Shown here: positions 11,364-64,000 of the stretch, piece by piece
Numbering within the stretch: position 1 is the stretch's first letter
Layout: each line of letters opens with the position of its first letter
Assembly: GCF_008935055.1 (NCBI RefSeq)
Contig: NZ_CP043028.1
Coordinates: 899,801-963,800, forward strand
DNA: 64,000 bases
Reading direction: 5' to 3'
DNA from: Pseudobutyrivibrio xylanivorans
GTDB lineage: Bacteria > Bacillota > Clostridia > Lachnospirales > Lachnospiraceae
The notes under the pieces: generated by a model
What the model was told of the DNA's origin: nothing
The model's database searches: none
The model's input: only the letters and a program-made list of their open reading frames with translations
Made by a program: the position numbers and the translations under genes

Positions 11364-12588
11364 TTCCTTTAACTGTTGGGTACTTATATACTTTTTTCCC
11401 TATATCCTTTGCAAGCAGTACACTTGTTAACCTGTCAGAAAAATTCGTTACGACATACACGTTTTCATTTTTTATCCATTCTGGATAATCTTCAGCCATC
11501 TGCCAGGGTGCTCCGCCCATCACATATATAATCAAATCTGTGTCAACTGGCACATTTATATTCGTTCCACAGTCATAAATATACAAACCATCAGGAGGTC
11601 TAAAATGCTCTACGTTCTCTCCATATTCAGGAATTCCCCTAAAGCCTTCGTGGTATAAAACACCTCTATCCAATTTGGTATTTTTAAGATTTCTCCATAG
11701 ATTTAGTACTGTGTTTCTCTCTATATCCTTATAATAACAGTCGATTTTTCTCTTATTAAAAAATCTACACATGGATATGGCAATGCGGGTTGTACCCACT
11801 GCATGGGTTCCGCCAATCACCGCGATTTTTCTATCGAGATGCGTTTTTCCGATTCCGTCATAAACTCTGTCTCCCTGTAGATTTTCAAGCAGCCGCCTCA
11901 GTTCTGTAATAGACTGAATTCGTCTTTCTACATCAACTTCAGTTGCGCATTCTACAATTCGTTTAATCCTGAAATCATCTTTTGCATAACTATTAATTTG
12001 CATAAAACCAATAACTTTTCCAACGCCGTACACATCACAACGTTCATCCAAACAACGTCCCGATTGTTGCTCCGGTGCTGCCCAGTCTTTCGTTCCAACG
12101 GGCTTTGCCCTATCAGCCTCAGACTTTGCTATGGAAATGCCAAAATCGATAAGTTTTATTGTGTTCCGCTGCATAATACAATGTTCAGGCTTCATATCCC
12201 TGTAAAGCACAGGCTCACTTCCTGCTGTATGCAGCGTTTCAACAACCTTACATATCTCAATAGCAATCGCTATTAGCTTTTCTTTTGTTATTTTGGTTTT
12301 CAGCAAATACTCCCGTAGAGAAATTCCCTCTACATATTCCTCAACCAAATAAATCATTTCTTCTGTATCTTCTACTTCGTAAATGGTGGGTATTTGGGAT
12401 GATTTAATCCCTTGTAAAAGATGTGCTTCGGATAGGATGCTGTTCGCATCAGGATGGGCTCTGTGAATAGCCTTAAGAATCCTTAATGCTCCTATCTTTT
12501 TGTAATTGACAAGTATGACTGCCGTAGCTGCTGACTCGCGCAGTACCCGAATTACTTCGTACCTGTCATCAATACCTTTTGGTATCAA
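11290..12588 (-). CDS. Ser/Thr protein kinase-like domain fused to a MinD-like domain
   Basis: A 432-residue protein. Residues about 8-215 form a Hanks-type kinase domain: the catalytic loop is YRDMKPEHCI (HRD replaced by YRD, Asn by His), DFG is intact in IDFGISIAK, and APE is present as AAPEQQ. The Gly-rich loop is lost (VLRESAATAVILVN). Residues about 248-432 start with KIAVIGGTHAVGTTRIAISM, a degenerate P-loop, and contain LYIYDCGTN and LIIYVMGGAPWQ. The start is TTG at 12588 with GGAAGGAG upstream. It may be a weak kinase or a pseudokinase. Next to it is a MinD-like partner; the role is unknown. Confidence 0.8.
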   Translation of the reverse strand: MIPKGIDDRYEVIRVLRESAATAVILVNYKKIGALRILKAIHRAHPDANSILSEAHLLQGIKSSQIPTIYEVEDTEEMIYLVEEYVEGISLREYLLKTKITKEKLIAIAIEICKVVETLHTAGSEPVLYRDMKPEHCIMQRNTIKLIDFGISIAKSEADRAKPVGTKDWAAPEQQSGRCLDERCDVYGVGKVIGFMQINSYAKDDFRIKRIVECATEVDVERRIQSITELRRLLENLQGDRVYDGIGKTHLDRKIAVIGGTHAVGTTRIAISMCRFFNKRKIDCYYKDIERNTVLNLWRNLKNTKLDRGVLYHEGFRGIPEYGENVEHFRPPDGLYIYDCGTNINVPVDTDLIIYVMGGAPWQMAEDYPEWIKNENVYVVTNFSDRLTSVLLAKDIGKKVYKYPTVKGNGLSKDEEKCFSAIFKNNKDFIIT

Positions 12589-12838
12589 ATTACATCAGCT
12601 CCTTCCGTTTTGAAATATCGGAAAAAGCATCTCGCGGATAATTTTATATCACAGATAAAATTATATTGCAACCCCTATTTTGAAATTTATAATTTTTCTG
12701 TAATATTCTCTTAATAAAAATTTTATACATTTATCATCATTTTTTATAGTAAGTTTCCTTTACTTTCCGATATAATATATATATAATAATTCGAACAAGA
12801 CAAGCTACAGCATCTTTTTCGATTCGGGAGGTGATTTT
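12589..12838. promoter_or_regulatory. Divergent promoter region between the kinase gene and mecA
   Basis: Very A/T-rich. TATAAT-like boxes around 12770-12785 point toward mecA, which has GGGAGGTGA just before its ATG. No exact -35 box is convincing. Confidence 0.45.
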
Positions 12839-13588
12839 ATGAAAATTGAAAAAATCAACGAGAACCAGATCAGATGCACTCTTTCAAGAGAAGATTTAAT
12901 TAGCCGTCACATCAAACTTTCAGAGCTAGCCTATGGCTCAGCAAAGGCCAGAGAGCTTTTTAGAGAGCTTATGGAGCAAGCTTCGTACCAATATGGTTTT
13001 GAAGCGGAAGATATTCCACTTATGATAGAGGCTATACCGCTTTCATCAGAATCCATCGTACTTTTAGTTACAAAAGTCGACAGTCCAGACGAGCTAGACA
13101 CTCGTTTTTCTCGATTCTCTGAGGACGATGACGATTATGATGATGACGATATGAATGTGACTGATGCTCCATCAAAGCCATTTAACGAGGCAGCAGCAGA
13201 TGACATTCTAAACATATTCAACAGTTTACTTCAAAAAGCAGAGGAAGCCATCAAGGCATCTCCTGAAAAGGCAGCTGCAAAAGGCTTGCCAGTTGATATC
13301 ACTAAGATGTTCGTTTTCGACAATCTCGAGGATGTCATAAAGCTTTCAGGAATCCTGGCTCCATTCTATACAGGAAAGAATTCTCTTTATAAGAGTCCAT
13401 TTGATGATAGATATTACTTAGTAGTGAGCAAATCCAAGGACAGTGTGGAAACCTACAATAAGGTCTGCAACATCCTCTCAGAGTACAGTGATCAACAGAA
13501 TTATGTAGTTGGTACTGATGCGTATATGTCTGAGCACTACGAGACAATGGTTCAAAATAACGCAATTCAAGAGCTTGCTCTTATATAA
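12839..13588 (+). CDS. mecA: Adaptor protein MecA
   Basis: ClpCP protease adaptor that delivers targets such as ComK in Bacillus relatives, 249 residues. The N-terminal part (MKIEKINENQIRCTLSREDL, LISRHIKLSELAYGS) and the acidic linker (FSEDDDDYDDDDMN) followed by a conserved C-terminal domain (FDNLEDVIKLSGIL, SLYKSPFDDRYYL) match the MecA/YpbH family. The start ATG has GGGAGGTG six bases upstream. Monocistronic, with a strong terminator directly after it. Confidence 0.93.
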   Translation: MKIEKINENQIRCTLSREDLISRHIKLSELAYGSAKARELFRELMEQASYQYGFEAEDIPLMIEAIPLSSESIVLLVTKVDSPDELDTRFSRFSEDDDDYDDDDMNVTDAPSKPFNEAAADDILNIFNSLLQKAEEAIKASPEKAAAKGLPVDITKMFVFDNLEDVIKLSGILAPFYTGKNSLYKSPFDDRYYLVVSKSKDSVETYNKVCNILSEYSDQQNYVVGTDAYMSEHYETMVQNNAIQELALI

Positions 13589-52427: not shown

Positions 52428-54056
52428 TCATAAGCAACAATTGTCACGAAGAATCTGAACCTGCTCAGCAGTTTCAACACCTTCTGTAAGGCATTCGATT
52501 CCCATGTCAGATGCCATAGCTGTTATGTGCTTATATAGAACTGTAGAGAGATCTTTTTGGTCGGTTGAAGATATCGGAAGTAGACTTCTGTCAATCTTCA
52601 TTACGTTCCATGGCAACTCCCTGATAAGATTTAAGGAAGAGTAGCCGATACCAAAATCATCAATGGATGTATGTATACCTATCTTTGTAAGACCTTCGAC
52701 CAGCTTTTTGAGTTTAAGATAATCGCCTTCTGTAGTTGTCTCGGTTAGCTCTATCTCAATGTATTCATATGGGATATCATATCGGTTTATTATACTGACG
52801 ACTTTATCCAAAAGTTCCGGATCAGCCAGGTGCTTACGGGAAAAGTTAATAGATATCCGAACCACGTTTTTCCCTTCATCCAACCATTTTCTTATATTCT
52901 TACAAACAAGATCAAGCATATAGAAATCCAGCCGGAATATATCCGTGTTACGTTCGAGTATCGGAATGAAATCCATAGGTGGTATTATCCTTCCATCCCT
53001 GATCCATCTGCATAGAGCCTCTGCGCCTATGATCCTGCCCGTTTCAACATTTACTTTTGGCTGATAGTATGCATGGAATTCATAATTATTTAGAGCTTCT
53101 TCAAAATGTCTGCGGATTTTTGAAACATTCTCTTTATCCTCTATATACTGCATACTCGCATATACAACATCAGTTTCATCGGATATTTTTGCAGTCTGAC
53201 AAGTGGGCAAGATCATTTCAACAATGTTGCCCGGCCTTTCATATTTGAAATCACTCGGAATGATAAATACTCCGGCATATGCTGATACGATTGCGCTGCT
53301 TGAAGTCAGCCGGTCATATATGATAGGTGTGCCTTCAAAAAAAGCGAGAATTTTCTCCAACATTTCATTTGGGAATATAGCTGCGAAGCTATCCCCTCCC
53401 ACACGACACACAGTACCACTATTTCCAATCATATCCCTTAAAGTATCGAAATGGGCTTTCATAACGGCGTTGCCTTCTTCGAATCCCAAATCACGATTTA
53501 TGACAGAAAAATCCTTAAGGTTATACATAATGGCGGTAAAGCCGTTAAATCCACCTGTTTTATTCATTTTTTCAAGATGGCGGAAGAAATATGCAAAATT
53601 CGGATATCCATTGTTGTCATGAAACGCGAGATTCTCGATTGCTTTCTGCATACGGTTCCGTCCTACGTAACTCATCATGGAACGCAGACAGATGTCAAGC
53701 TGCTGTTCTTCTTTATTGCTCAAATGTTCTGTGCCTTTGGCAGAATATGCTATGGCTCTAACTATAGCCCCTGTTCTTGAAATGAGTTCTTTTTTGAGCA
53801 CAACAATGTCCGCAGAACCTTCATTGAAATCACAGAGGATTTCTCCCTTGCCGTCTTTTTCATCCACACTGCTCCTATAAAACTCTGTGACAACTTTGGT
53901 CAGACGAAAAGAACGAGCCAATCTGCAAAGAACATCAACCAGGGGTTCTCTGGAAAAATGTTCAAAATCAACCATGGCATCGATGTATTTTATGAATAGT
54001 TCTGAAAAATCATCTTGTGTTGTCAATTTTTCATCAGTATTATCTGAGTTGGCCAT
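52428..54056 (-). pseudogene. GGDEF-EAL protein, C-terminus lost
   Basis: A 542-residue frame. A degenerate GGDEF domain (CRVGGDSFAAIF instead of GGDEF; about 145-280) is followed by an EAL domain with EALCRWIRDGR, ELTETTTEGDYLKLKKLVEG, SIDDFGIGYSSLNLI and [20 protein letters not shown], where it suddenly ends. The closing motif QGYxxxKP, which carries a conserved substrate/metal-side Gln, is missing and lies at 48696-48782. The truncated protein is likely inactive in breaking down c-di-GMP, but might still bind. Start with AGAGGAGAA upstream. Confidence 0.88.
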
Positions 54057-54120
54057 TATTTCTCCTCTGGTTCTCAGTCCGAGATTACTATAAATTGAAA
54101 ATGGGGTCAGGGGGGTACCG

Positions 54121-54137
54121 TTATCTAAATGACATTG
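54121..54137 (+). repeat. IS-end-like repeat, copy 1
   Basis: TTATCTAAATGACATTG, followed by GGGACGGTTCTGACC. The same 17 bases occur at 55918-55934, and with one mismatch in the other direction at 62508-62524. Probably a remnant of an insertion sequence end between the chemoreceptor and the EAL gene. Confidence 0.7.
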
Positions 54138-54160
54138 GGACGGTTCTGACCGGTATTACA

Positions 54161-55609
54161 TTATTTCAGCCTCTGCGCCTGATCATATATCCCCTTCAGC
54201 AGAATATCAAACTCATCAAATTTCTCCACCGCTGTCCTTGCTCCCTCTTCGCCCATACCGGACAAAGCTGCCACCTGCTCACTTGTGGCGGCGAGGCTCG
54301 CAATATTATTATTGATCTCCGTTGCACTTCTTCCTATAGCTTCTATGGAAGTACCGATATCATTAAATCTTCCTATAAGGTTTCCAACGTTCTCCCCGAT
54401 CTCTTCAAAAGTATCTGCGGTCTCTCTGATAAGAATGTCCTGAGCCTTGACAGACTCAGCTGCCGCATTGGTAGAGTCTACCGCATTCTGAACATCAGCG
54501 GAAAGCTCCTGCATGATGCTGGTGATCTGATTTGAAGCACTGCTGGTCTGCTCCGACAGCTGCCTTATCTCATCGGCAACCACAGCGAAACCTTTCCCGG
54601 CTTCTCCCGCACGCGCTGCCTCAATTGAAGCATTGAGCGCAAGAAGATTGGTCTGCATTGATATCGATATGATGGAACCGACAATCTTCTCAACCTTTTC
54701 GACCTTCTCAGTGACAGCTCTTGTGGATGCCACCGTCTTATCACTCATCTCAACAACATTTGCGGTCTTGTCCTTGAGCTGGTCGATGACCTTAGTCCCA
54801 TCAATAACGGCTTTCTGCGTGCTCTCGGACATCTCAACCATCTGATTTCTCTTGGCATCAGCCACTTCCGTCTGCTCATGGATATCTGCTATCTGATGTG
54901 ACTGCTCTGTCACGGCAGCTGCGGTATCTCCTGTGCTGTCCGCAATATCCCTCATGCCATCGTGGTTTCTTCCTATGATGCTCTTTAACTCATCGACTTC
55001 CCCATGGGCCTCATCAAACAGCCTCGTAATTTCCTTGGCGATCTCCACCATCTGGATACGGGTCTTTTCCTGGGTCTCCTGCCCTTTCTTGATGGCCTCG
55101 TCGTCCTCTCTTACCAGGGTCCGCCTCATCTTAAGCGACTCTATTCCGGCAATTCCCGCAAGAATGATTATGAAACCGGCCACAAAATGGTCCCTGGGTA
55201 TCGAACCTGTAGCAATAAGATTTCTGACCAGGACAATAAATCCGCCTATGGTCATAGCCATCTGTCCCACCACATAGAGCCTTAAGTCCAGATAAAGAAT
55301 ACACGACAGCATTACCGGTATCGCGAATGCATAAAAAATCATATCATTTTGTATTATCATGATAACCATATAGTAAAGAGTCGGACCTCCCAGAATAACC
55401 ACTGCGCCAAACCTGGTCTCTCTGAATTTGATAAATCCAACCGTCATCTGCAGCACAACTGCCGGGACAGCGACAATCTCGATGACAAGCCCCAGGCTCA
55501 TTCCGTGTGCTGCAGCATCCAGCACTACCATTAAAAGCGCAGCAAAGACAATAATAAGGTTGATCTGAAATACTTTTTTGTTTGATCTTGCATACTGGTC
55601 AGGGGTCAT
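54161..55609 (-). CDS. Methyl-accepting chemotaxis protein with multi-helix membrane domain
   Basis: A 482-residue receptor without a large extracellular domain: the first ~170 residues form about six membrane helices ([51 protein letters not shown]), followed directly by a signalling domain with [20 protein letters not shown]. The ATG at 55609 has AAAGGAGA eight bases upstream; earlier ATGs lack a site. A membrane-internal or cytosolic signal is likely. Downstream genes are the split EAL gene and another receptor. Confidence 0.93.
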
Positions 55610-55708
55610 ATAATTATCTCCTTTCGCCATGAAAACAGAATTTAACTGTACAATAACTGACAAAATAGGTACGCTACGTTCTTCAGATTATACAGTAGCG
55701 TGGACATT

Positions 55709-55874
55709 TACGTGACACAGCTTTATCTTTAGACTGTTATCACGTAGTTTCGCAATGATTTTCTGGCATTCTACGTGATACACCCCCGTTAACAAGCCTC
55801 TCCTCACGTATTTTTTCCAGATATCTGTTTAGTTTTACGTGTTCTACTACTAATAAAGAGCAGCATCTCACGTA
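55709..55874. repeat. Six-site alternating TACGTGA/TCACGTA array, 31-32 bp period
   Basis: TACGTGA (55709), TCACGTA (55740), TACGTGA (55772), TCACGTA (55804), TACGTGT (55836, last base differs) and TCACGTA (55868). Neighbours are reverse complements of each other and start-to-start distances are 31, 32, 32, 32 and 32; the 24-25 base spacers are unrelated. Lies 100-265 bases upstream of the chemoreceptor start codon and about 210 upstream of an AraC gene. Confidence 0.9.
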
Positions 55875-55917
55875 GACGCTATAAATATCATGCTTGTTGC
55901 TCTGTCACATCTTTTTC

Positions 55918-55951
55918 TTATCTAAATGACATTGACCGTGAATAGTAACAC
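55918..55951 (-). repeat. Solo IS4-type element end
   Basis: 34 bases that match the left end of the IS4-family element at 62491-62524 in reverse orientation, with two differences. The outer tip (GTGTTACTATTCAC when read inward) is at 55951. There is no transposase next to it, so it is a relic or a shared recognition site. Confidence 0.8.
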
Positions 55952-56083
55952 ATTAAAGCTTTTCATTCATTGCCGATTTTGCGACAACTATTTTGTATTG
56001 AAATATGACTAAAAATCCTTTATTCTATGAAATAAAATTAGTTCTTCGTTCCAGTCAACTCACACTAAAAAGGGTGAATATCT

Positions 56084-56893
56084 ATGGAAAAAAAGCCGTT
56101 CGCAATAAAATCAATCCCAGACATTACCGCATATACGAATACTGCACTGGATGAAAGAAAAGTGCACCGTCCTCCTAGCGAAGAAATCCGCTTTTATTTA
56201 GCTGTTGCTAGTGGTGATGTAGAGTATGTGCAACAAAACTGTTTGGAGGGACGATTTTATCGTCCAGAGGGCGGTGCCGGGATATTGTCAAAGAATCCTG
56301 TAACCAATCTCAAATATCATTATGTAATTACTATTTCCATCATTTGCCGTTTCTGTAGTGAAGCCGGCATAGATCATGAATTCGCTTACAATTTGGCCGA
56401 TTATTATATCGGTCTGCTTGACTCTGTAAAAACTGAAGAAGAAATCATTCAGTTGCACGATGCGATCGTAATGGCCATCACTTATCATATGCAAACATTT
56501 TCACATATGCTTTCATCTTCAAAGGTCGTGGACGAAGCCCTAGATTACATCTCTAAACATATCCTGGAGCGTATAACTGCCGACAATGTAGCGGATGCCC
56601 TACAGCTTTCCCGAAGCTACTTTTCCAGACTATTCAAGACGGAAACCAATCTATCCTTCTCAGACTATGTCAGAAAGGAAAAAGTCAAAGTAGCCGAAAA
56701 CCTCCTTCGCTATAGTGATTACAGTATCATCGAAATTTCCAACTATCTGGGGTATTCCACCCAGAGCTATTTTTCACAGGTTTTCAAAAAGGAAACCGGC
56801 TACTCGCCTAAAGACTTCCGTGATAAATTCTTCAAAACAGTGTGGCACACAAAATTTGAAAACCTTGCCAACTTTACTACACCTAAAAAATAA
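56084..56893 (+). CDS. AraC-family regulator
   Basis: A 269-residue protein with two helix-turn-helix units at the C-terminus (ITADNVADALQLSRSYFSRL; IIEISNYLGYSTQSYFSQVF, KKETGYSPKDFR). The N-terminal 150 residues are helical with no cupin motif, resembling regulators that act with two-component or nutrient systems. Its stop codon is three bases from the convergent binding-protein gene. A role in regulating that gene or the nearby chemoreceptors is possible. Confidence 0.9.
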   Translation: MEKKPFAIKSIPDITAYTNTALDERKVHRPPSEEIRFYLAVASGDVEYVQQNCLEGRFYRPEGGAGILSKNPVTNLKYHYVITISIICRFCSEAGIDHEFAYNLADYYIGLLDSVKTEEEIIQLHDAIVMAITYHMQTFSHMLSSSKVVDEALDYISKHILERITADNVADALQLSRSYFSRLFKTETNLSFSDYVRKEKVKVAENLLRYSDYSIIEISNYLGYSTQSYFSQVFKKETGYSPKDFRDKFFKTVWHTKFENLANFTTPKK

Positions 56894-56896
56894 TTA

Positions 56897-58306
56897 TTAC
56901 TGAACCGTGATAGGATCGTAGGTGAGTTCTGGGTATTTCACTACCGCATTTTTCAGGAAATTATTTATGGCCGTTTGCTTATCGCATTTACCACCTATAT
57001 AGTCTCCCATTTGCTTCTGGAACACCTCATTAAGACCGTGGTCATAAGGACCTACCTTAGACATATCAATCTTTGGAGCTGCTTGTGAAAACAACTTAAT
57101 ATGATTCTGTCCACTGAGGAAATCTGATTTATAATCTGATGCAGCAAGTGTCTCCATTCCAGAAACCGTATTAGTATAATCCTGAGTTTCCCCACTCATC
57201 TTCACCATGTTATCCTTGTCGCAGGTAAGCTTTCTCATTATGTCAACAACTAGCTCCTTGTTGTCGGTACCACGGGCTCCTGAAATCCAGGTGCCGCCCC
57301 AGTACCATGCCGCTGGTCCTTCACATACTGCCCAATCTCCAAAGCCTTCTTCTCCGGCATTTCCAACAAGTGTGAAATTTATTCCCCAGGTAGACATAAA
57401 GAATCCAAAGACCTTTCCCTCTGCACTCTGGTCAAAATTCCATCCGTCAGTCCACTGCTCGTTGTCTCCAATCCATCCATTTTCAGTGTATTTTTTACAC
57501 ATGTCAGCCCATTCAATAAGCTTTGAATCAACCTGAATCTTTGGAGAAACTGAACTTGGGTCATCTACCCAGGTCTGTGTTACATTATTTGAAAAAACTC
57601 TAAAGGTCTCAACCGGACCTGAGAGCATGTGATATCCCTTTTTGTTAGCCAAATCTGCCACATGGTCAAAACCGTTCCAGTCTGATAGTTCATTCTGAAC
57701 CACCACTGGGTCATCTGTTCCAAGTACATCTATAGCAATGGAACGTCGATAACCAAACAAGCCCGGTGTAGCCTGCCAGCTAACGCCCTTCAGCTTTCCC
57801 TCCTGGGATGTAGCAATAGTCTTTGTGTATTGATACTGATCTGCCAATTCTGATTCACTAATTCCCAAATTCCCCACAACATCCAGGGTATAATCAGAAT
57901 CCACATATTTTAAAATATAATCCGCTTCTAGCAGAAACAAATCCACTCGCTCATCCGCACTTCTTGTCATATTTAAAAGAAGTGCTTCATCTAACGCTGG
58001 CTGATAATCATTAGATGGAACTATAGTCCAAACAACCTTTACATTTCCAATTTTTCCTGTGCCATCACCATTATCTGTATAGCCAGGATAGTAATCCGTC
58101 ATACGCTCTTCAAACTCTGTATTCCAGCAATATATATTTAGCGTACTTCCTCCATCGGTCGCCACACCTTCAGCTGACTCTGATTCCAGAGTGGAGGTAC
58201 CTGTACCGTCGTTGCCCTCAGTGGCTCCACAACCAATGAAGGAAAATACTACTAAACAAAAACACATAATTGAACTTATAACAAATGCTTTATTTCTTAT
58301 TCTCAT
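56897..58306 (-). CDS. Extracellular solute-binding lipoprotein
   Basis: A 469-residue family 1 binding protein. The N-terminus MRIRNKAFVISSIMCFCLVV plus FSFIGC is a lipoprotein signal with Cys as lipid site, then a Gly/Ser/Glu linker and the binding fold (LNIYCWNTEFEERMTDYYPG; AWYWGGTWISGARG). The ATG at 58306 has GGAGG five bases upstream; a longer frame to 58369 has none. No permease or ATPase gene is adjacent. It directly follows a chemoreceptor gene, so it may present a sugar to that receptor rather than feed a transporter. Confidence 0.88.
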   Translation of the reverse strand: MRIRNKAFVISSIMCFCLVVFSFIGCGATEGNDGTGTSTLESESAEGVATDGGSTLNIYCWNTEFEERMTDYYPGYTDNGDGTGKIGNVKVVWTIVPSNDYQPALDEALLLNMTRSADERVDLFLLEADYILKYVDSDYTLDVVGNLGISESELADQYQYTKTIATSQEGKLKGVSWQATPGLFGYRRSIAIDVLGTDDPVVVQNELSDWNGFDHVADLANKKGYHMLSGPVETFRVFSNNVTQTWVDDPSSVSPKIQVDSKLIEWADMCKKYTENGWIGDNEQWTDGWNFDQSAEGKVFGFFMSTWGINFTLVGNAGEEGFGDWAVCEGPAAWYWGGTWISGARGTDNKELVVDIMRKLTCDKDNMVKMSGETQDYTNTVSGMETLAASDYKSDFLSGQNHIKLFSQAAPKIDMSKVGPYDHGLNEVFQKQMGDYIGGKCDKQTAINNFLKNAVVKYPELTYDPITVQ

Positions 58307-58325
58307 GGCAACCTCCAAAACAAAT

Positions 58326-60047
58326 CTAAATATGAATCTCATTAATGCTCTCATCCAGAATCTTGGCAATGTCGTTTAGCTTATCACTGCCATCTGCCAC
58401 CGACTTGAGCTGGTTAATAATATTTGTCATTGTATCTGAAGTTTCCTGAGAACTTGCTGCATTTTCCTCAGCAATTGCAGAAAGACTGATTACCGTATTT
58501 ACGATATTCTCTCTTGCTACATTCAGCCTGTCTGCACGCTGCCTGATTTGCTCAGCGCTTTCAAGGGATGTATCAATGCCATCCTGAACAATTCTAAATG
58601 CATGTTCAGTATCTTCAACCAGCTTACTTTGCTGCTGCATAACCTCCATGACTTCATCCATAATCTCAACTGCCTTGGATGAATTAGCAACCAGCTCTTG
58701 AATAATCAAATCAATACTCTTTGCCGATTCACTTGACTCTGCAGCCAGCTTAGAAATCTCTGAGGCAACAACGGCGAAGCCTTTTCCGGCTTCACCCGCG
58801 CGAGCTGCCTCAATACTTGCATTAAGTGATAACAAATTTGTTTCACTGGCAATATCTGCAATTAACTGTGTAACCTCTTTAATCTTTTGAGCCGCCTCAT
58901 TTGTTTCATTTGTCTGCTCGTAAATGCGCTCGATTGAATCGAATGTACTCTTGTTAATCTCACTCAGATCTTCGAGAATATTGAAAGCCTCCTCACTTGT
59001 GTTGCGCATATTATTTGCTGTTTCAGTAAGCTCTGAAACCTGATTGCTGGTATCTATAATCATCTCGCCGATAACACCCACATCCACGTTTGCCTTCTGG
59101 GTCTCATCAGCCTGTGAGCTGGCACCTGTAGCGATATCACCAACTGCTTGCTCAATATGAGATGCATCATCATTTGTATCTCTTGCACTCTGGTACAAAT
59201 CCTGTGATGTATTGTAGAGAATGGTACTTTGACTCTGAATCTTCTGAACAATTCCAACCAGCTTCTCGCGCATTTCCTCTACTGATTCAGCGATAACTCC
59301 AGTCTCGTCCTTGCGCGTTAGCAAAGCTCCGGTTCTCTCATCACCTGTGAAATCAAGATCTCCAATCTGATCCACAACCTCAGCCACAGTCTCAATTGGC
59401 TTTGTGATTCGAAGCGCCTGATAAAGTCCGAAGGAAAGCATCACTACAAAAATAACCACTCCGGTGATTATAGCAATCATGGTCATTTTATTTAAGGTTG
59501 CAAGAAAATCAGCCTTCTCAACTGCAACCACAAGTACAAAGCCCTTAGAGCTTGCATAATATGCCGCTATCTCATCCTGTCCATCTATGTTGTATTCAAC
59601 AATATCTGATGCATTTCCACTACCTAACGAAGTAGCTATATTTTTTATAGCTTCTACCTCAGCTGTTCGGCCAATCTTATCGTGATTTGGATGATAAAGA
59701 GTTATCCCGTCACTTCGAACTAAATAGCAATAACTGCTTTCGCAGTCAGCCATTTTTGCATTCTGTAAAAAAGACTCCAATCTAAATGGAACCTTGCGTA
59801 TATCGATATCGTACTGGGTAAGATTTACTGCTGTTTCCATACGCTGACCGTACATCTGGGCAGTCATGTACAGATAGTCGGAGTTTACACTTAAAAGCTC
59901 TTTTCTTACTGGAATTGTAACCACCAGAAGAATTGCAGTAACTGCAATAAAAACGGCTATTCCAACGGTGCTCATAACCCTAAAGCGTATTGATGCATGC
60001 ATTGGAACAGTTCTTGAAGATTTTACCTTATTCTCATTCCTAGCCAT
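58326..60047 (-). CDS. Methyl-accepting chemotaxis protein with Cache sensor
   Basis: A 573-residue receptor. Membrane helix about 25-47, Cache-like sensor with a PAS-type core ([34 protein letters not shown]), second helix about 190-212, HAMP, and signalling hairpin [20 protein letters not shown]. It forms a two-gene unit with the binding lipoprotein gene 20 bases downstream. Fourth chemoreceptor of this window. Confidence 0.94.
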
Positions 60048-60211
60048 ATGTCTCTCCTCTTACAGACATATCTCCCTTTGGAAGAAATTATAGCTTGTGA
60101 AAAAAATTCCTAATATCAATTTTTTGACCTGATTGTTCAAATAGTGACTTTTTATATTGTGCAAAATCAAGCCTCACAAAATGCTTAAGGTTTCGCCACA
60201 ATATCGCCATA

Positions 60212-60238
60212 AAAACCTGCTAACAAAAATCAAGCAGG
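60212..60238 (-). terminator. Terminator-like hairpin downstream of the IS110 transposase
   Basis: On the minus strand CCTGCT and AGCAGG pair around an 11-base loop, then five T. It may stop read-through from the IS110 element toward the chemoreceptor. Confidence 0.6.
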
Positions 60239-60279
60239 AATTTCAAATATACTTTTTAAATAATTAATTGCATCACAAT

Positions 60280-60302
60280 AAGGCTGGCGGTAGACCAGCC
60301 TT
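60280..60302 (-). terminator. Hairpin at the IS110 transposase 3' end
   Basis: AAGGCTGG (60280-60287) and CCAGCCTT (60295-60302), 8-base stem, 7-base loop, just after the transposase stop. U run weak. Confidence 0.6.
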
Positions 60303-60315
60303 TAACTATATTTTT

Positions 60316-61517
60316 CTATTTATACACTTCACTTACTCTTGCATAATATATCCTTAAAAACTTGTTTAAACCTGCTATTTTTGCATGTTTCTTTGTTTTA
60401 CCTTCAGCTTCCTTTTTCAGGATGTAATTGTATACAGCATTATCCTCTGGTTCAGGGTGACTCTTCAACACTCGCATAACTTCATACCCTACTTTTCGTA
60501 GCGTTGATGAACCTCTTTTCGTTATGCGCCGGTTTGAACCTACAAATTGTCCTGATTCATATGGAGGAGGATCTATTCCCGCAACAGCAATAAGGGCTTT
60601 TGCGCTATGAAGTTTTCTTATATCTCCAATTTCAGCAATCAACTTAGGTGCCAATACATCACCAACCCCACCCATTGCTCTAACAGTAGAATATTCAGGT
60701 AAACTCTTAGCAAGTTCCTTCATTCGTGTTAGAATTGTATTGAGGGTATCATCAATTGCTCTCAACACAGATATAGCTTCTTGTACTAACATTTTTGTAG
60801 ATGGAGTACTTGAAGATAACGTAGGAATACCATTAGATGCCAATTCATATATTTCTTCAGCTTTTGATTGGCTCTTTTGGTATTTCTTTTCTTTAGCCAC
60901 TCACAATAGGCCACCACAAAATCATCACGACTCATTCCGATAATCAGGTCATAATGCCAGAAGCGTTCTACAAAATCACTAAGTTTATCTTTATTATTCT
61001 TTTCATCCCAACTATTAAATTTAGTTTTTAAGCCTGGCATTGTGTAATCTAACATATGAGTTAATTCTTGAAGCGCTTTAATGTGTAGTTCCATATAGAA
61101 TCTGTAACGTCTCCCAAGCAACTTAAGCTCAGCATATATAGCCTCATCTTTGTCATAGTTTTGAAGCTTATACCATTTTTCAATACCATAGTTTGCTATG
61201 ACAATTGAGTCCAATTTGTCTGTTTTAGCGCCACGAATGCTGTTATCTTTAGCATATTTTCTCATGGCATATGGATTTATTACCGACACAAAATATCCAC
61301 GCTCAAGAAAATAAGTTAGCAATGGCAAATGGTATACACCTGTGGCTTCCATAACCAATCTTACTTCGCCATCCAGCTTCCTTAACATCTTCTCAAGTTC
61401 GCTGAGCTCACTTTCTGTATGCTGTACTTCAAACGGTTTTAATACAATTTCTCCGTATGGCTTCATAACGCATACAGTACTTTTACCTTTAGAAACATCA
61501 ACACCTACGCTTATCAT
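60316..61517 (-). pseudogene. IS110-family transposase, split by a frameshift
   Basis: Two overlapping frames make up one transposase of about 400 residues. The first (61517-60786) has the RuvC-like DEDD domain: VGVDVSKGKSTV, VMEATGVYHLPLL, AKTDKLDSIVIA. The second (60900-60316) carries the Transposase_20 part with MGGVGDVLAPKLIAEIGD and the serine region NRRITKRGSSTLRKVG. The change is by -1 near the A-rich 60882-60896. The first frame turns to nonsense after YCEWLKK while the second begins KEKKYQKSQSKAEE, the normal continuation. Either decayed or made by slippage. Confidence 0.9.
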
Positions 61518-61519
61518 TC

Positions 61520-61711
61520 TAAACCTCCCTCTACATAAAATTTAGTAATTGTTCCAACCGCACTTATTACCATTCAGTTTAGTTGGTTACGCGGGTGTCG
61601 CTCCCTACCTGCCTAATCGAATGCTTATAATAAGGGGTTGGTTAACGGTTTTTATTGCGGATGATTAATCCAAAAAGCCCCACGTCAGACCAATTACTCC
61701 CCTTATTATAA
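61520..61711 (-). ncRNA. Candidate IS110 bridge RNA leader
   Basis: The ~190 bases upstream of the transposase are strongly structured. TTATAATAAGGGG (61625-61637) and CCCCTTATTATAA (61699-61711) form a perfect 13-base stem with a 61-base loop, and CCAAC (61554-61558) with GTTGG (61582-61586) a second stem with a 23-base internal loop. IS110 elements are known to encode in such a leader a bridge RNA that pairs with target and donor DNA. Which loop bases pair with what is not determined here. Confidence 0.5.
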
Positions 61712-61760
61712 AAAAATAAGTGCAGAAGTTAGAGTTAATTACTCTCTAACTACTACACTT
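61709..61760 (-). terminator. Terminator of the aminotransferase gene
   Basis: On the minus strand a long imperfect stem (AAGTG..AGTTAGAGAGT against ACTCTAACT..CACTT) is followed by seven T (about 61711-61717 as A on the plus strand). It ends the message of the aminotransferase at 61840. Confidence 0.8.
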
Positions 61761-61839
61761 TTATGGTACTAAAATCCCCAGATAATTCATATTTTACTAT
61801 CAATTACCTGAGGAGTATTTTAGTTATTTTTTATTACTA

Positions 61840-62490
61840 TTATTCAGCTTTCGCAAGAATAAGCTTTTCAAGATATGCAATACGTGCACAAACTGTGAAT
61901 ACCTCAGCTGCCTGCTCAAGCTCCTCGATTGGAGGAAGTGATGGAGCGAAACGAATGATAGAGTCGTTAGGATCCATGTGATATGGGAATGGAGCTCCTG
62001 CTGGTGTAAGCTTAACGCCCGCCTCTGCTGCTAAATCTACGATACGAGTAGCTGTTCCCTTTGGAGCCTCGAATGTGATGAAGTATCCACCCTTTGGTGA
62101 AATCCAGCTACCACAGCCTGGCTCTACTAAATCTCTCTCCATTGTTCTGATTACAAGCTCAAACTTTGGACGGAGAATCTTTGCGTGCTTTTCCATGTGC
62201 TTGCTGACAGACTCAACATCTGCAAAATATCTGGCATGACGAAGCATGTTGATTTTGTCGAAGCCGATAGTCTGAACTGTAAGAGTCTTCTTGAGCTCCT
62301 CACGGTTCTTGTGATTACATGCAATAACTGCGATACCGCCACCTGCAAATGTAATCTTTGAAGTAGATGCAAACTCAAATACAAGATTTGGATTGTCTGC
62401 TTCCTCACACTCGTGAAGGATATTTAAGATTTTGCTCTTTTCCTTGTAGAGGTGATGTACAGCATATGCATTGTCCCAGAATACTCTGAA
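61840..62490 (-). pseudogene. Aminotransferase, 5' part separated by an IS4 element
   Basis: The last ~216 codons of a PLP aminotransferase: FASTSKITFAGGGIAVIACN carries the PLP Lys, followed by MLRHARYFADVESVSKHMEK, GGYFITFEAP and IRFAPSLPPIEELEQA. It resembles the aspartate/alanine aminotransferase-like family of clostridia (PF12897 type). The coding sequence runs without stop up to 62490, where the IS end begins. The N-terminal half is expected beyond the right edge, on the other side of the IS, if it still exists. Confidence 0.85.
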
Positions 62491-62524
62491 GTGTTACTAT
62501 TCACAGTCAATGTCATTTAGTTAA
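62491..62524 (+). repeat. Terminal repeat of the IS4-family element
   Basis: Outer end GTGTTACTATTCAC followed by AGTCAATGTCATTTAGTTAA. The same sequence in reverse with two differences lies at 55918-55951. Confidence 0.8.
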
Positions 62525-62678
62525 GGGGAAAGAAAGTGCGTTATTGAAGATGAATTAAGGTGTTTCCTAGAGTTTCATCGTTAAAATTAGGATGAAACAT
62601 AATAATTGAGTAAAGAAGAGCACGCAAAATAGACAGATTTTCATCTGCCTCATAAAGATGTATACTACTTATGATCTT

Positions 62679-64000
62679 TTAGAACCTGTAAGCAAAGCTG
62701 ACAGGTATTTGGAATCTATGCTGGCGGGCATAATTCCTACCAGGCCTGATGGGGAGTATGTTCTGCCTAATCAGGCCTTCTATATTTGGTGGGGAATCTC
62801 CATTTTTTATGCGGATAAAGTAATGACATGCATTGAATGCCACTGTGAAATTGACTTGATATTCATACTTTCGCTTTGCCCTTTTGAAAACTACATGTTG
62901 AGTGATTACTGAGCAGAAATTGTAAAGAATTAGTTTGGCCCAAATTTCATGCTCTATATACTCTCTTTTTTTAGATCGAAAATTACCAGTTCCGAGGATG
63001 TGTTTGAGCTCCCTGAAAGATGTTTCAATTCCCCAGCGTAAGTTATAGAGATCTTTTATATCATCTGCGGAGAATTCTTCAACAGGAAGATTAGTCACTA
63101 TGTTTTCGTAGGAAGGATCAGTTATCTTGAAGCGTAGAACACGAAGAGTTATTTCGTATTCATCTTTTGATCCTTCAGGAAGATAGTCAAACCTAACAGC
63201 TTTGCATATATACCTGTACGCATCAGGTTTATCTGGTTGCTTTCTGTTTTTCTTCGAAGCTGAGCGAGTAAGAATTCGAGTTACACTTATATCAAGATCA
63301 TCTGGAAGTTCATCGATGGAAGAACCGGTTAAACGCATCATGTTTTTGTCCTTTGCACGAATGAGAAAAAAAGATTTATTTTCTATTGCATGCGCAAAAA
63401 CGTTATACGCAAAGAACCCTCTGTCTGCTATAAATATAGGCATGAGGTCGTGATGTTCGTATTCGTCTATTAGTTCTGCCAATGCTTTAAATTCATTTTT
63501 CTTTTTGATTGGCTGAATTTTAGCGTTAACATAGTATCTGCTGATTAAGTCATACAAAGCAACTGTATGGATTTGGTTAAAGCCTTTAGTTGATTTACCA
63601 TCCGGCCCATAGAATGATATGGTATCTTCCGGATTTCGGGTAAAGGTAAAAGTACAACCATCAGCAGCCATTAACTGATACTTGTCTTTATACGGAGCGG
63701 GAGGAAAATGGGAATTGAAGCGTTGTAGAAGTGATTTGAATGTTTCTGGGGCTAGCTTGTTGCGTTGTTGACAGTATGCAGAGTTGGACAGTGTATCTTC
63801 CTGGTAGTTAAAGTATTTATACAGCTCATGTCTCATGGTTCCAGCTTCCATGGTAATAGGCAGTAAGACAAGATCTTTAAACGATATCTTTCTATGCCGG
63901 GTAAAGTCCTTTCCTGGATTCAACGCATAGGCTTCTGGTGTTGATGCCATAGCATCGATATCAGACATCAAATAGTTTTTTACAGTAACAGAATAGTTCA
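62679..64000 (-). CDS. IS4-family transposase, probably complete or nearly so
   Basis: DDE transposase, at least 430 residues. Catalytic triad: Asp in MAADGCTFTF, Asp in IFIADRGFF, and Glu in NLRWGIETSFRELKHILG, which fits the IS4 Y-(2)-R-(3)-E-(6)-K signature. From TTG 63971 or ATG 63968 the frame reads MSDIDAMASTPEAYALNPGK, but it stays open to the window edge (NYSVTVKNYL upstream), so the true start may lie outside. Apparently intact, so the element may be active. Confidence 0.92.
   Translation of the reverse strand, partial: NYSVTVKNYLMSDIDAMASTPEAYALNPGKDFTRHRKISFKDLVLLPITMEAGTMRHELYKYFNYQEDTLSNSAYCQQRNKLAPETFKSLLQRFNSHFPPAPYKDKYQLMAADGCTFTFTRNPEDTISFYGPDGKSTKGFNQIHTVALYDLISRYYVNAKIQPIKKKNEFKALAELIDEYEHHDLMPIFIADRGFFAYNVFAHAIENKSFFLIRAKDKNMMRLTGSSIDELPDDLDISVTRILTRSASKKNRKQPDKPDAYRYICKAVRFDYLPEGSKDEYEITLRVLRFKITDPSYENIVTNLPVEEFSADDIKDLYNLRWGIETSFRELKHILGTGNFRSKKREYIEHEIWAKLILYNFCSVITQHVVFKRAKRKYEYQVNFTVAFNACHYFIRIKNGDSPPNIEGLIRQNILPIRPGRNYARQHRFQIPVSFAYRF

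Follow-up and report, generated by a model that had tools for sequence, protein, structure and literature searches.

A helically phased array of alternating 7-bp sites in Pseudobutyrivibrio xylanivorans, probably an orphan, transposon-carried copy belonging to a family of nuclease-like genes

The question raised by this part of the Pseudobutyrivibrio xylanivorans chromosome is to what a set of six short sites, alternating in orientation and regularly spaced between two unrelated genes, belongs. The window, meaning here the whole 64,000-nucleotide stretch of DNA that was analysed, reads TACGTGA at 55709..55715 (site 1) and 55772..55778 (site 3) and TACGTGT at 55836..55842 (site 5), all on the plus strand, while the minus-strand sites at 55740..55746 (site 2), 55804..55810 (site 4) and 55868..55874 (site 6) each appear on the plus strand as TCACGTA. 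An earlier note made from the sequence had described six alternating sites, and its reading was confirmed: the steps are 31, 32, 32, 32 and 32 bp, the spacers 24, 25, 25, 25 and 25 bp, as first noted, and the single deviating base lies in site 5. The repeat is better described as an inverted pair, TACGTGA-N24/25-TCACGTA, of 38-39 bp, present three times at unit steps of 63 and 64 bp, or six helical turns; sites 1, 3 and 5 are the left arms and sites 2, 4 and 6 the right arms of units 1, 2 and 3, and the whole array occupies 55709..55874.

TACGTGA by itself is not rare in the window, with nine matches against a shuffle mean of 3.9 (two of 100 shuffles reach nine); the rare feature of the array is its alternation and spacing, not the 7-base word. 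When the window was scanned for alternating arrays of any motif in 123 tiles of 520 bp, the array tile alone scored 3.5 or more, the second-best tile, which is AT-rich, scored 3.0, and an array score of 3.5 was attained by two of 4040 sequences made by dinucleotide shuffling of similar stretches. A chance arrangement of the sites was ruled out by these shuffle and tiling controls. A CRISPR, already dismissed in the earlier note, was likewise rejected: the array shares with CRISPRs short repeats with unrelated spacers, but its sites are 7 bp long, strictly alternating and helically quantised, as described below, in place of direct repeats of about 20-50 bp, and no cas gene was recognised by eye among the ORFs read.

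The array lies between a divergent chemoreceptor gene (MCPsignal; 54161..55663, minus strand, start codon uncertain), to whose start it comes within about 100 bases, and a downstream gene for an AraC-family regulator (56084..56893, plus strand), a position that would suit an operator through which a host regulator acts on one of them. However, the same array stands among other genes in other genomes (by eye), arrays of such build occur family-wide upstream of another gene, and neither neighbour was seen at any of 14 other array loci, where ORFs were compared by eye. Because the ORFs beside those loci differ, both the chemoreceptor and the AraC gene are probably incidental, and the operator reading, taken together with a chance arrangement, is regarded as very improbable.

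The earlier note would have given up the pattern had no other genome shown it, and it was found elsewhere. Of 99 genomes, 5 contain the exact pair, namely the window's own, G004, G017, G032 and G063, the match in G063 being a lone pair within a longer inverted repeat, and at least 119 stretches in a species collection contain it. Among the matches listed, nine have three or more alternating, regularly spaced sites; seven of these are titled Butyrivibrio (L028, L034, L049, L062, L067, L077 and L082) and two are weak three-site chains in other phyla (L030 and L097). One of 120 viral stretches fetched has an array of at least three sites, an eight-site TACGTGA array near a viral contig end (L248 13261-13491) that adjoins a Phage_integrase ORF (11813-12892) and perhaps marks a host-virus boundary. 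Identity between the window array and those of L062, L082, L017 and L018 is 80-84%. In seven related arrays compared with it, 9 of 294 site bases and 141 of 868 spacer bases differ, counts that are not independent, as the arrays share ancestry; this check, which the earlier note had proposed, found spacers that drift while sites and period are kept.

The immediate surroundings of the array identify what carries it. Positions 55661..55934 are the remnant of an approximately 307-bp IS4-type miniature element, 95.6% identical to L019 8953-9226, and a complete copy of the element lies at L019 8920-9226. The window element is without its left end (approximately 33 bp, including the left terminal inverted repeat, TIR) and keeps the right TIR, CAATGTCATTTAGATAAGAAAA, of 22 bp (55913..55934, minus strand), so that the IS end noted earlier near the array is present and belongs to the array's own carrier. 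Two 1648-bp stretches in the same genome have ends matching the TIRs of the element at 20 of 22 bp, and the one in which ORFs were read encodes a 447-aa transposase with a DDE_Tnp_1 domain; this profile is the match itself, and we take the carrier and its transposase to be of the IS4 family. The ends of the miniature element thus match those of an autonomous element of the same genome, and what the window holds is an orphan array within a truncated MITE of IS4 type. Relatives at L019, L049, L067 and L077, of 94-96% identity, also carry IS4-type inverted repeats. In L019 and L049 both 22-bp TIRs are present (by eye), with 9-bp flanking repeats, also read by eye, that match at 9/9 positions in L019 and 8/9 in L049, as expected of a target-site duplication; the window copy has lost the left end at which such a repeat would lie. 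A search for the 22-bp end with up to three mismatches gave matches in four of eight genomes tried.

The link to a transposon suspected in the earlier note was therefore supported in part: the window copy is carried by a MITE, but the array belongs to a resident family of nuclease-like genes and not to a transposase. Compared with a simple MITE of an IS4-type IS, a single array class was seen travelling in this way, and the cargo is a predicted binding array, which is more than an internal deletion of the IS would leave. The copy found in the window would have been spread by an IS4-type transposase that acts at the 22-bp ends. Other mobile-element traces in the window are another ORF for an IS4-like transposase (62679-63971, minus strand, by eye) within 62508-63971, where the end CAATGTCATTTAG at 62508 is of the same type as that of the array's carrier; one more stretch resembling an end, at 54116-54137; and an IS110-family transposase at 60316-61517 that is split across two overlapping frames (DEDD_Tnp_IS110, Transposase_20).

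TACGTGA arrays occur in two settings, either upstream of a gene for a product of about 265 aa (L014, L015, L062 and L082, of which L015 is a locus in the window's own genome) or solo. The likely cognate gene of the window array lies at 2.19 Mb in the same genome (G000:C1:2190216-2191013) and is predicted to encode a nuclease-like protein of about 265 aa. Upstream of it, TACGTGA, TCACGTA, TACGTGC and GCACGTA follow one another at regular spacing in a partly degenerate array, two of whose four sites deviate; it scores 3.0, below the threshold of 3.5, and the gene (L259) is counted among the 22 without an array in the survey that follows.

The survey covered 105 distinct family loci, taken from the best and next-ranked matches plus L062 and L082, a set that is not random and includes near-identical orthologues; four loci with less than 150 bp upstream were left out and 101 were usable. 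A free scan, which allowed alternating spacings of 22-50 bp and units of 44-100 bp, used a threshold of 3.5 and by design left out near-palindromic words, detected an alternating array upstream of 79 of the 101 genes and none at that threshold upstream of 22, while among the controls arrays were called in 4 of 2020 shuffled sequences, in 0 of 102 stretches of coding sequence and in 5 of 65 stretches from downstream of the genes. With site spacing narrowed to 28-36 bp, 37 of 101 upstream regions reached 3.5, as against 79 at 22-50 bp. The motif varies by locus and paralog (e.g., TACGTGG, TGCATCC, TACAGTG, AGATAGT and GCTAAGA). Family matches were found in 28 of 29 genomes of the genus, with 1-11 in each, in 47 of 150 family-level genomes (E 1e-20) and, by profile search at class level, in 17 of 291 genomes (E 1e-30); two class-level genes outside the window's family, L512 (G472) and L514 (G457), have arrays of 10 and 12 sites nearby, at distances from the gene that are approximate only.

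Two further loci of the window's own genome deserve mention. At G000:C1:1149916-1150644 (L260), a family pseudogene interrupted by several stops has kept an upstream TACAGTG array. At 2.24 Mb, a family gene is flanked on both sides by alternating TTTATCAAT arrays (L264 683-1420 and 2396-2825) with a 72-73-bp unit, for which reason this locus was ruled out as a CRISPR. Its upstream spacers are unrelated to one another; because the downstream spacers are near-identical, the downstream array appears to reflect recent tandem growth.

The geometry of the arrays is set by the DNA helix. Unit length, determined in 84 arrays, is 51-54 bp in 43, 62-65 bp in 25 and 72-75 bp in 16, with nothing else observed, so that array units are 5, 6 or 7 turns of B-DNA. 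The 155 distances measured from one unit to the next are fitted best by a period of 10.45 bp and a phase of about 0, with a resultant length of 0.89 at 10.5 bp, and when the dominant 61-65.5 class is removed the resultant is still 0.85 (n=68); irregular distances of 84, 94-96 and 126-128 bp are included. These distances were obtained with a motif list typed by hand from pairs limited to an offset of 29-32 bp, and repeats were removed by the first 12 spacer bases, so that diverged orthologues may remain and some dependence is left among the 155 values, which falls far short of explaining the quantisation. The earlier suggestion of a cooperative array with sites on one face of the DNA thus gained support, as family-wide unit distances amount to whole helical turns.

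The same geometry bears on the proposal that the array acts as RNA, its sites pairing with either neighbour to form mutually exclusive hairpins of a switch. The arms are complementary by construction and RNA folding gave a z of -3.2, but such a value is expected anyway from inverted repeats, and an RNA would not need a spacing quantised by the DNA helix. Furthermore, six identical two-sided arm changes were counted against 153 one-sided ones, with a permutation mean of 6.05, so that changes in the arms are not compensated beyond random re-pairing. No Rfam family reached its gathering score in window positions 54000-62000, where a sub-threshold L31 match lies at 55618-55656. A switching RNA, as the earlier note had considered, is accordingly given hardly any credence.

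What the gene family encodes can be read mainly from its C-terminal domain. Searches of Pfam and NCBIfam with four members gave no model above cut-off, and over 35 members the best Pfam E-value was 0.0027, with no transposase among the matches. PADLOC profiles that match the C-terminal domain are those of PDC-S68 (E down to 8.9e-27) and of the PD-DEXK type, and in an alignment of 35 rows the residues SKSE (162-165), PD (195-196) and EH (211-212) are invariant. On the basis of these conserved residues and the PADLOC profiles, the domain appears to be of the PD-(D/E)XK type, and nuclease activity is predicted for the family; the best match to a nuclease in the PDB has an E-value of 0.73, and structure prediction from two sequences gave a pLDDT of 37. 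Relatives on viral contigs have only the C-terminal domain in common with the family, and nine of ten lie in long proteins, where such domains end helicase-like proteins that are RecD-like by eye.

Similarity between motifs tracks the N-terminal domain rather than the nuclease domain. In a partial Mantel test of 35 loci with motifs registered by hand, the correlation of motif with N-terminus given C-terminus was 0.48, a value as high in 0 of 2000 permutations, and the reverse (C-terminus given N-terminus) was -0.18. The 49 array loci available had been reduced to 43 by dropping those with few or unregistered sites (L332, L335, L342, L353, L359 and L363) and to 35 by requiring less than 85% N-terminal identity. 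An automatic version restricted to products of 255-292 aa, for which 78 loci were used and reduced to 66, gave 0.16 (0 of 2000 permutations) and a reverse of -0.06, the signal being strongest in residues 21-80. As an individual example, the products at L282 (motif TGCATCC) and L287 (motif TACGGAA) share 96% identity over the C-terminal part but 34% over the N-terminal part. Same-genome paralogs that were sampled had a common motif in 0 of 18 pairs (shuffle P 0.077), so that distinctness of motifs within genomes is not significant and suggestive only.

The locus downstream of guaA offers a view of such differences at one chromosomal position. The family gene is present there in 13 of 20 genus genomes with more than 1 kb of sequence, as a fragment only in G014, and in G004 and G008 a family gene lies about 1.9 kb from guaA by coordinates. 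Four motif types occur at the locus, TGCATCC, TACAGTT, TACGGAA and TACGGGT, with TACGTGA as a fifth in L062 and L082; the array signal was weak (2.5) in G014 and G021, although the G021 gene (L281) scored 4.5 in the free scan. Between G025 and G018, guaA is 92-99% identical and the C-terminal region 85-96%, while the array and N-terminal region fall to 52-70%, which is background. Such alignments demonstrate that related species carry different putative modules of array plus N-terminus between near-identical flanks at guaA. As a side observation, of 26 contigs with guaA, 6 stop no more than 140 bp beyond the gene, which suggests that repeats on the 3' side of guaA break assemblies.

These findings are brought together in the following model, in which the window array is, with good probability, an orphan, transposon-carried copy of a helically phased array, presumed to bind protein as double-stranded DNA, of the nuclease-like gene family. 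Its cognate protein would be the approximately 265-aa product of G000:C1:2190216-2191013. A dimer would bind the unit, an inverted pair of 7-bp half-sites, by means of the N-terminal domain of the protein (residues about 21-80), and whole-turn unit spacing would let dimers assemble on one face of the DNA; because of the helical quantisation, the kept sites with drifting spacers and the lack of excess arm compensation, binding to one face of double-stranded DNA is the interpretation favoured here. Where an array precedes the gene, the protein would most likely autoregulate. Of the 79 upstream arrays, 34 stop no more than 60 bp short of the start codon (median, 79 bp), and because 44 of 79 end within 100 bp, autoregulation is suggested for many loci; the remaining 35 end more than 100 bp away, which speaks against the model, as do the 22 of 101 family genes without an upstream array at the threshold, the proposed cognate gene among them. 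Arrays away from the gene would serve as dispersed platforms, and specificity would evolve as the array and the N-terminal half are exchanged together, as a single module, while the flanks stay conserved. What the sequences show directly is the arrays, their diverse motifs and quantised spacing, the tie of motif to N-terminus, the exchange of modules, the MITE ends and the conserved sites; physical DNA binding, dimerisation, autoregulation and nuclease activity are predictions.

Dispersed pairs were counted in 29 genomes of the genus and found for TGCATCC in 19, for TACGGAA in 11 and for TACAGTT in 7, whereas a reversed-pattern control gave 0, 5 and 4 genomes, respectively. Because the control yields one or two pairs per genome where it matches, single dispersed pairs are near background. 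Genomes with a sampled TACGGAA gene (G003, G008, G009, G013 and G022) have 3-27 TACGGAA pairs, counts that include the gene's own array, which is all that G003 has, and the other 24 have 0-2. G013 holds 27, mostly intergenic by eye and with differing spacers, no two of those listed being alike. The link between gene and pairs is looser for TGCATCC than for TACGGAA: all ten genomes counted with a TGCATCC gene have pairs of this motif and so do nine without a sampled gene, while G021, which has a gene of TGCATCC type, has zero. A TACGGAA match common to G007, G009, G014 and G023, with nearly the same spacer, was rejected as probably no array, being a repeat near a reverse-transcriptase ORF (L444). 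Around 29 dispersed pairs or arrays, 27 loci show no similarity to a family gene nearby, the others being a gene locus (L429) and a remnant (L018), and no such similarity was found near the array in the window. Because of these 27 loci and the window, dispersed arrays may do something other than autoregulate.

That arrays are themselves parasites offers a different explanation, in which REPIN-like non-autonomous elements are mobilised or maintained by the nuclease-like protein, 'enslaved' as has been suggested for RAYTs, and binding serves transposition, not regulation. The 27 pairs of G013 and the presence of dispersed arrays in general fit this explanation, as does the dependence of the motif on the gene, which resembles the possession by RAYTs of their own REPINs (PMC3116915). 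So do several element-like moves. A 393-bp array stretch is 94% identical between two species (G009 and G008; L442 and L416) with unrelated flanks, homology of the array common to L017 and L018 stops within about 10 bp of the outer sites, and in G013 about 1.2 kb with an array, extra DNA that exceeds the array, stands where 10 syntenic relatives have a short gap. However, neither common ends nor target duplications were found for these array-only moves, and the one clear mobile case uses IS4 ends. Most same-genome dispersed copies are without common spacers, recent copying not being seen for them, and the gene looks resident at guaA, where it is present in 13 of 20 genomes. This parasitic explanation is considered possible but on the whole unlikely. 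IS ends also lie beside array sites at four contig ends of G013 (L430 2491-2823, L434 2599-2931, L439 18-349 and L437 2644-2871); three share an identical 332-bp stretch with an orfA-like ORF that has no Pfam match, the fourth holds a transposase end (rve_3), and the IS concerned may target arrays. Insertion of IS elements into REPs has been reported (PMC1525189).

A further explanation is that arrays mark or titrate resident DNA and restrain the nuclease, modules being swapped as in restriction systems, so that cells would discriminate each other's DNA or mobile elements. In its favor, the C-terminal domain matches the end of the PDC-S68 candidate defence proteins, and is fused to those RecD-like helicases of viral contigs; the family has 1-11 matches per genome in 28 of 29 genus genomes, and allelic modules are replaced between conserved flanks. 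Against this, no recurrent partner gene was seen at the loci read, exact pairs are few per genome (at most 27 for one motif), unlike Chi-type marks, and motif distinctness within genomes falls short of significance. Methyltransferase ORFs do lie near three array loci (L082 1507-2262, L428 4391-5173 and L429 3358-4001), but they match general domains only (Methyltransf_25, Methyltransf_11), and no named DNA methylase family was matched among them. A function in self-recognition or defence is therefore thought improbable, and any role in defence or selfish spread is a hypothesis.

Among known systems, REPIN/RAYT is the nearest described arrangement. REPINs are short inverted-pair repeats dispersed in intergenic DNA, of several motif families per genome, with a cognate cluster beside each distinct single-copy enzyme gene (PMC3116915), and in BIMEs the REPs alternate in orientation at regular spacing (PMC2817692). 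The likeness lies in the dispersed inverted pairs of the genus genomes and in the arrays at 79 of 101 genes. The tyrosine (Y1) transposase, however, is absent here and its place is taken by a nuclease-like protein with a putative N-terminal specificity module; a REP is itself an imperfect palindrome, whereas the half-sites here are 7 bp, not self-palindromic and form no hairpins by themselves; the units keep to a spacing of 5, 6 or 7 helical turns; and specificity appears to be exchanged as a module at a fixed locus.

In type I restriction systems, a variable recognition half of HsdS is swapped between conserved flanks, which changes the DNA motif that is read. Here too, a variable half lies between conserved flanks and the motif changes, but the loci read showed no recognisable restriction partners, and the DNA array is itself part of the variable module. 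The similarity to PDC-S68 is confined to a homologous C-terminal nuclease-type domain: PDC-S68 models run to about 1200 residues, and the viral relatives are mostly large fusions of helicase-like type, whereas the family described here has a short N-terminal module and an array instead. No account of such arrays or of the gene family was found in the literature covered, which was without most subscription journals and preprints.

An orphan repeat has now been linked to a large unnamed gene family, and the link supplies a hypothesis on the biochemistry of that family that can be tested. About 80 naturally occurring combinations of a protein with its DNA motif, whose geometry can be read from sequence, constitute a data set for a DNA-recognition code, and the locus downstream of guaA is a chromosomal position at which nearly identical flanks enclose different recognition modules. 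The findings also suggest that the REPIN/RAYT arrangement has a second counterpart, built on an unrelated enzyme. It is proposed, as a tentative view that is nearly as likely to be right as wrong, that these genes and arrays constitute an undescribed bacterial DNA system in which nuclease-like proteins with exchangeable N-terminal recognition modules have their own phased arrays, up to 11 members per genome and dispersed mobile arrays, and which may serve to tell self from non-self DNA or may lead a selfish existence like that of REPINs, though with an unrelated enzyme. For Butyrivibrio and related bacteria, the family looks like an undescribed and readily re-targeted DNA-binding system.
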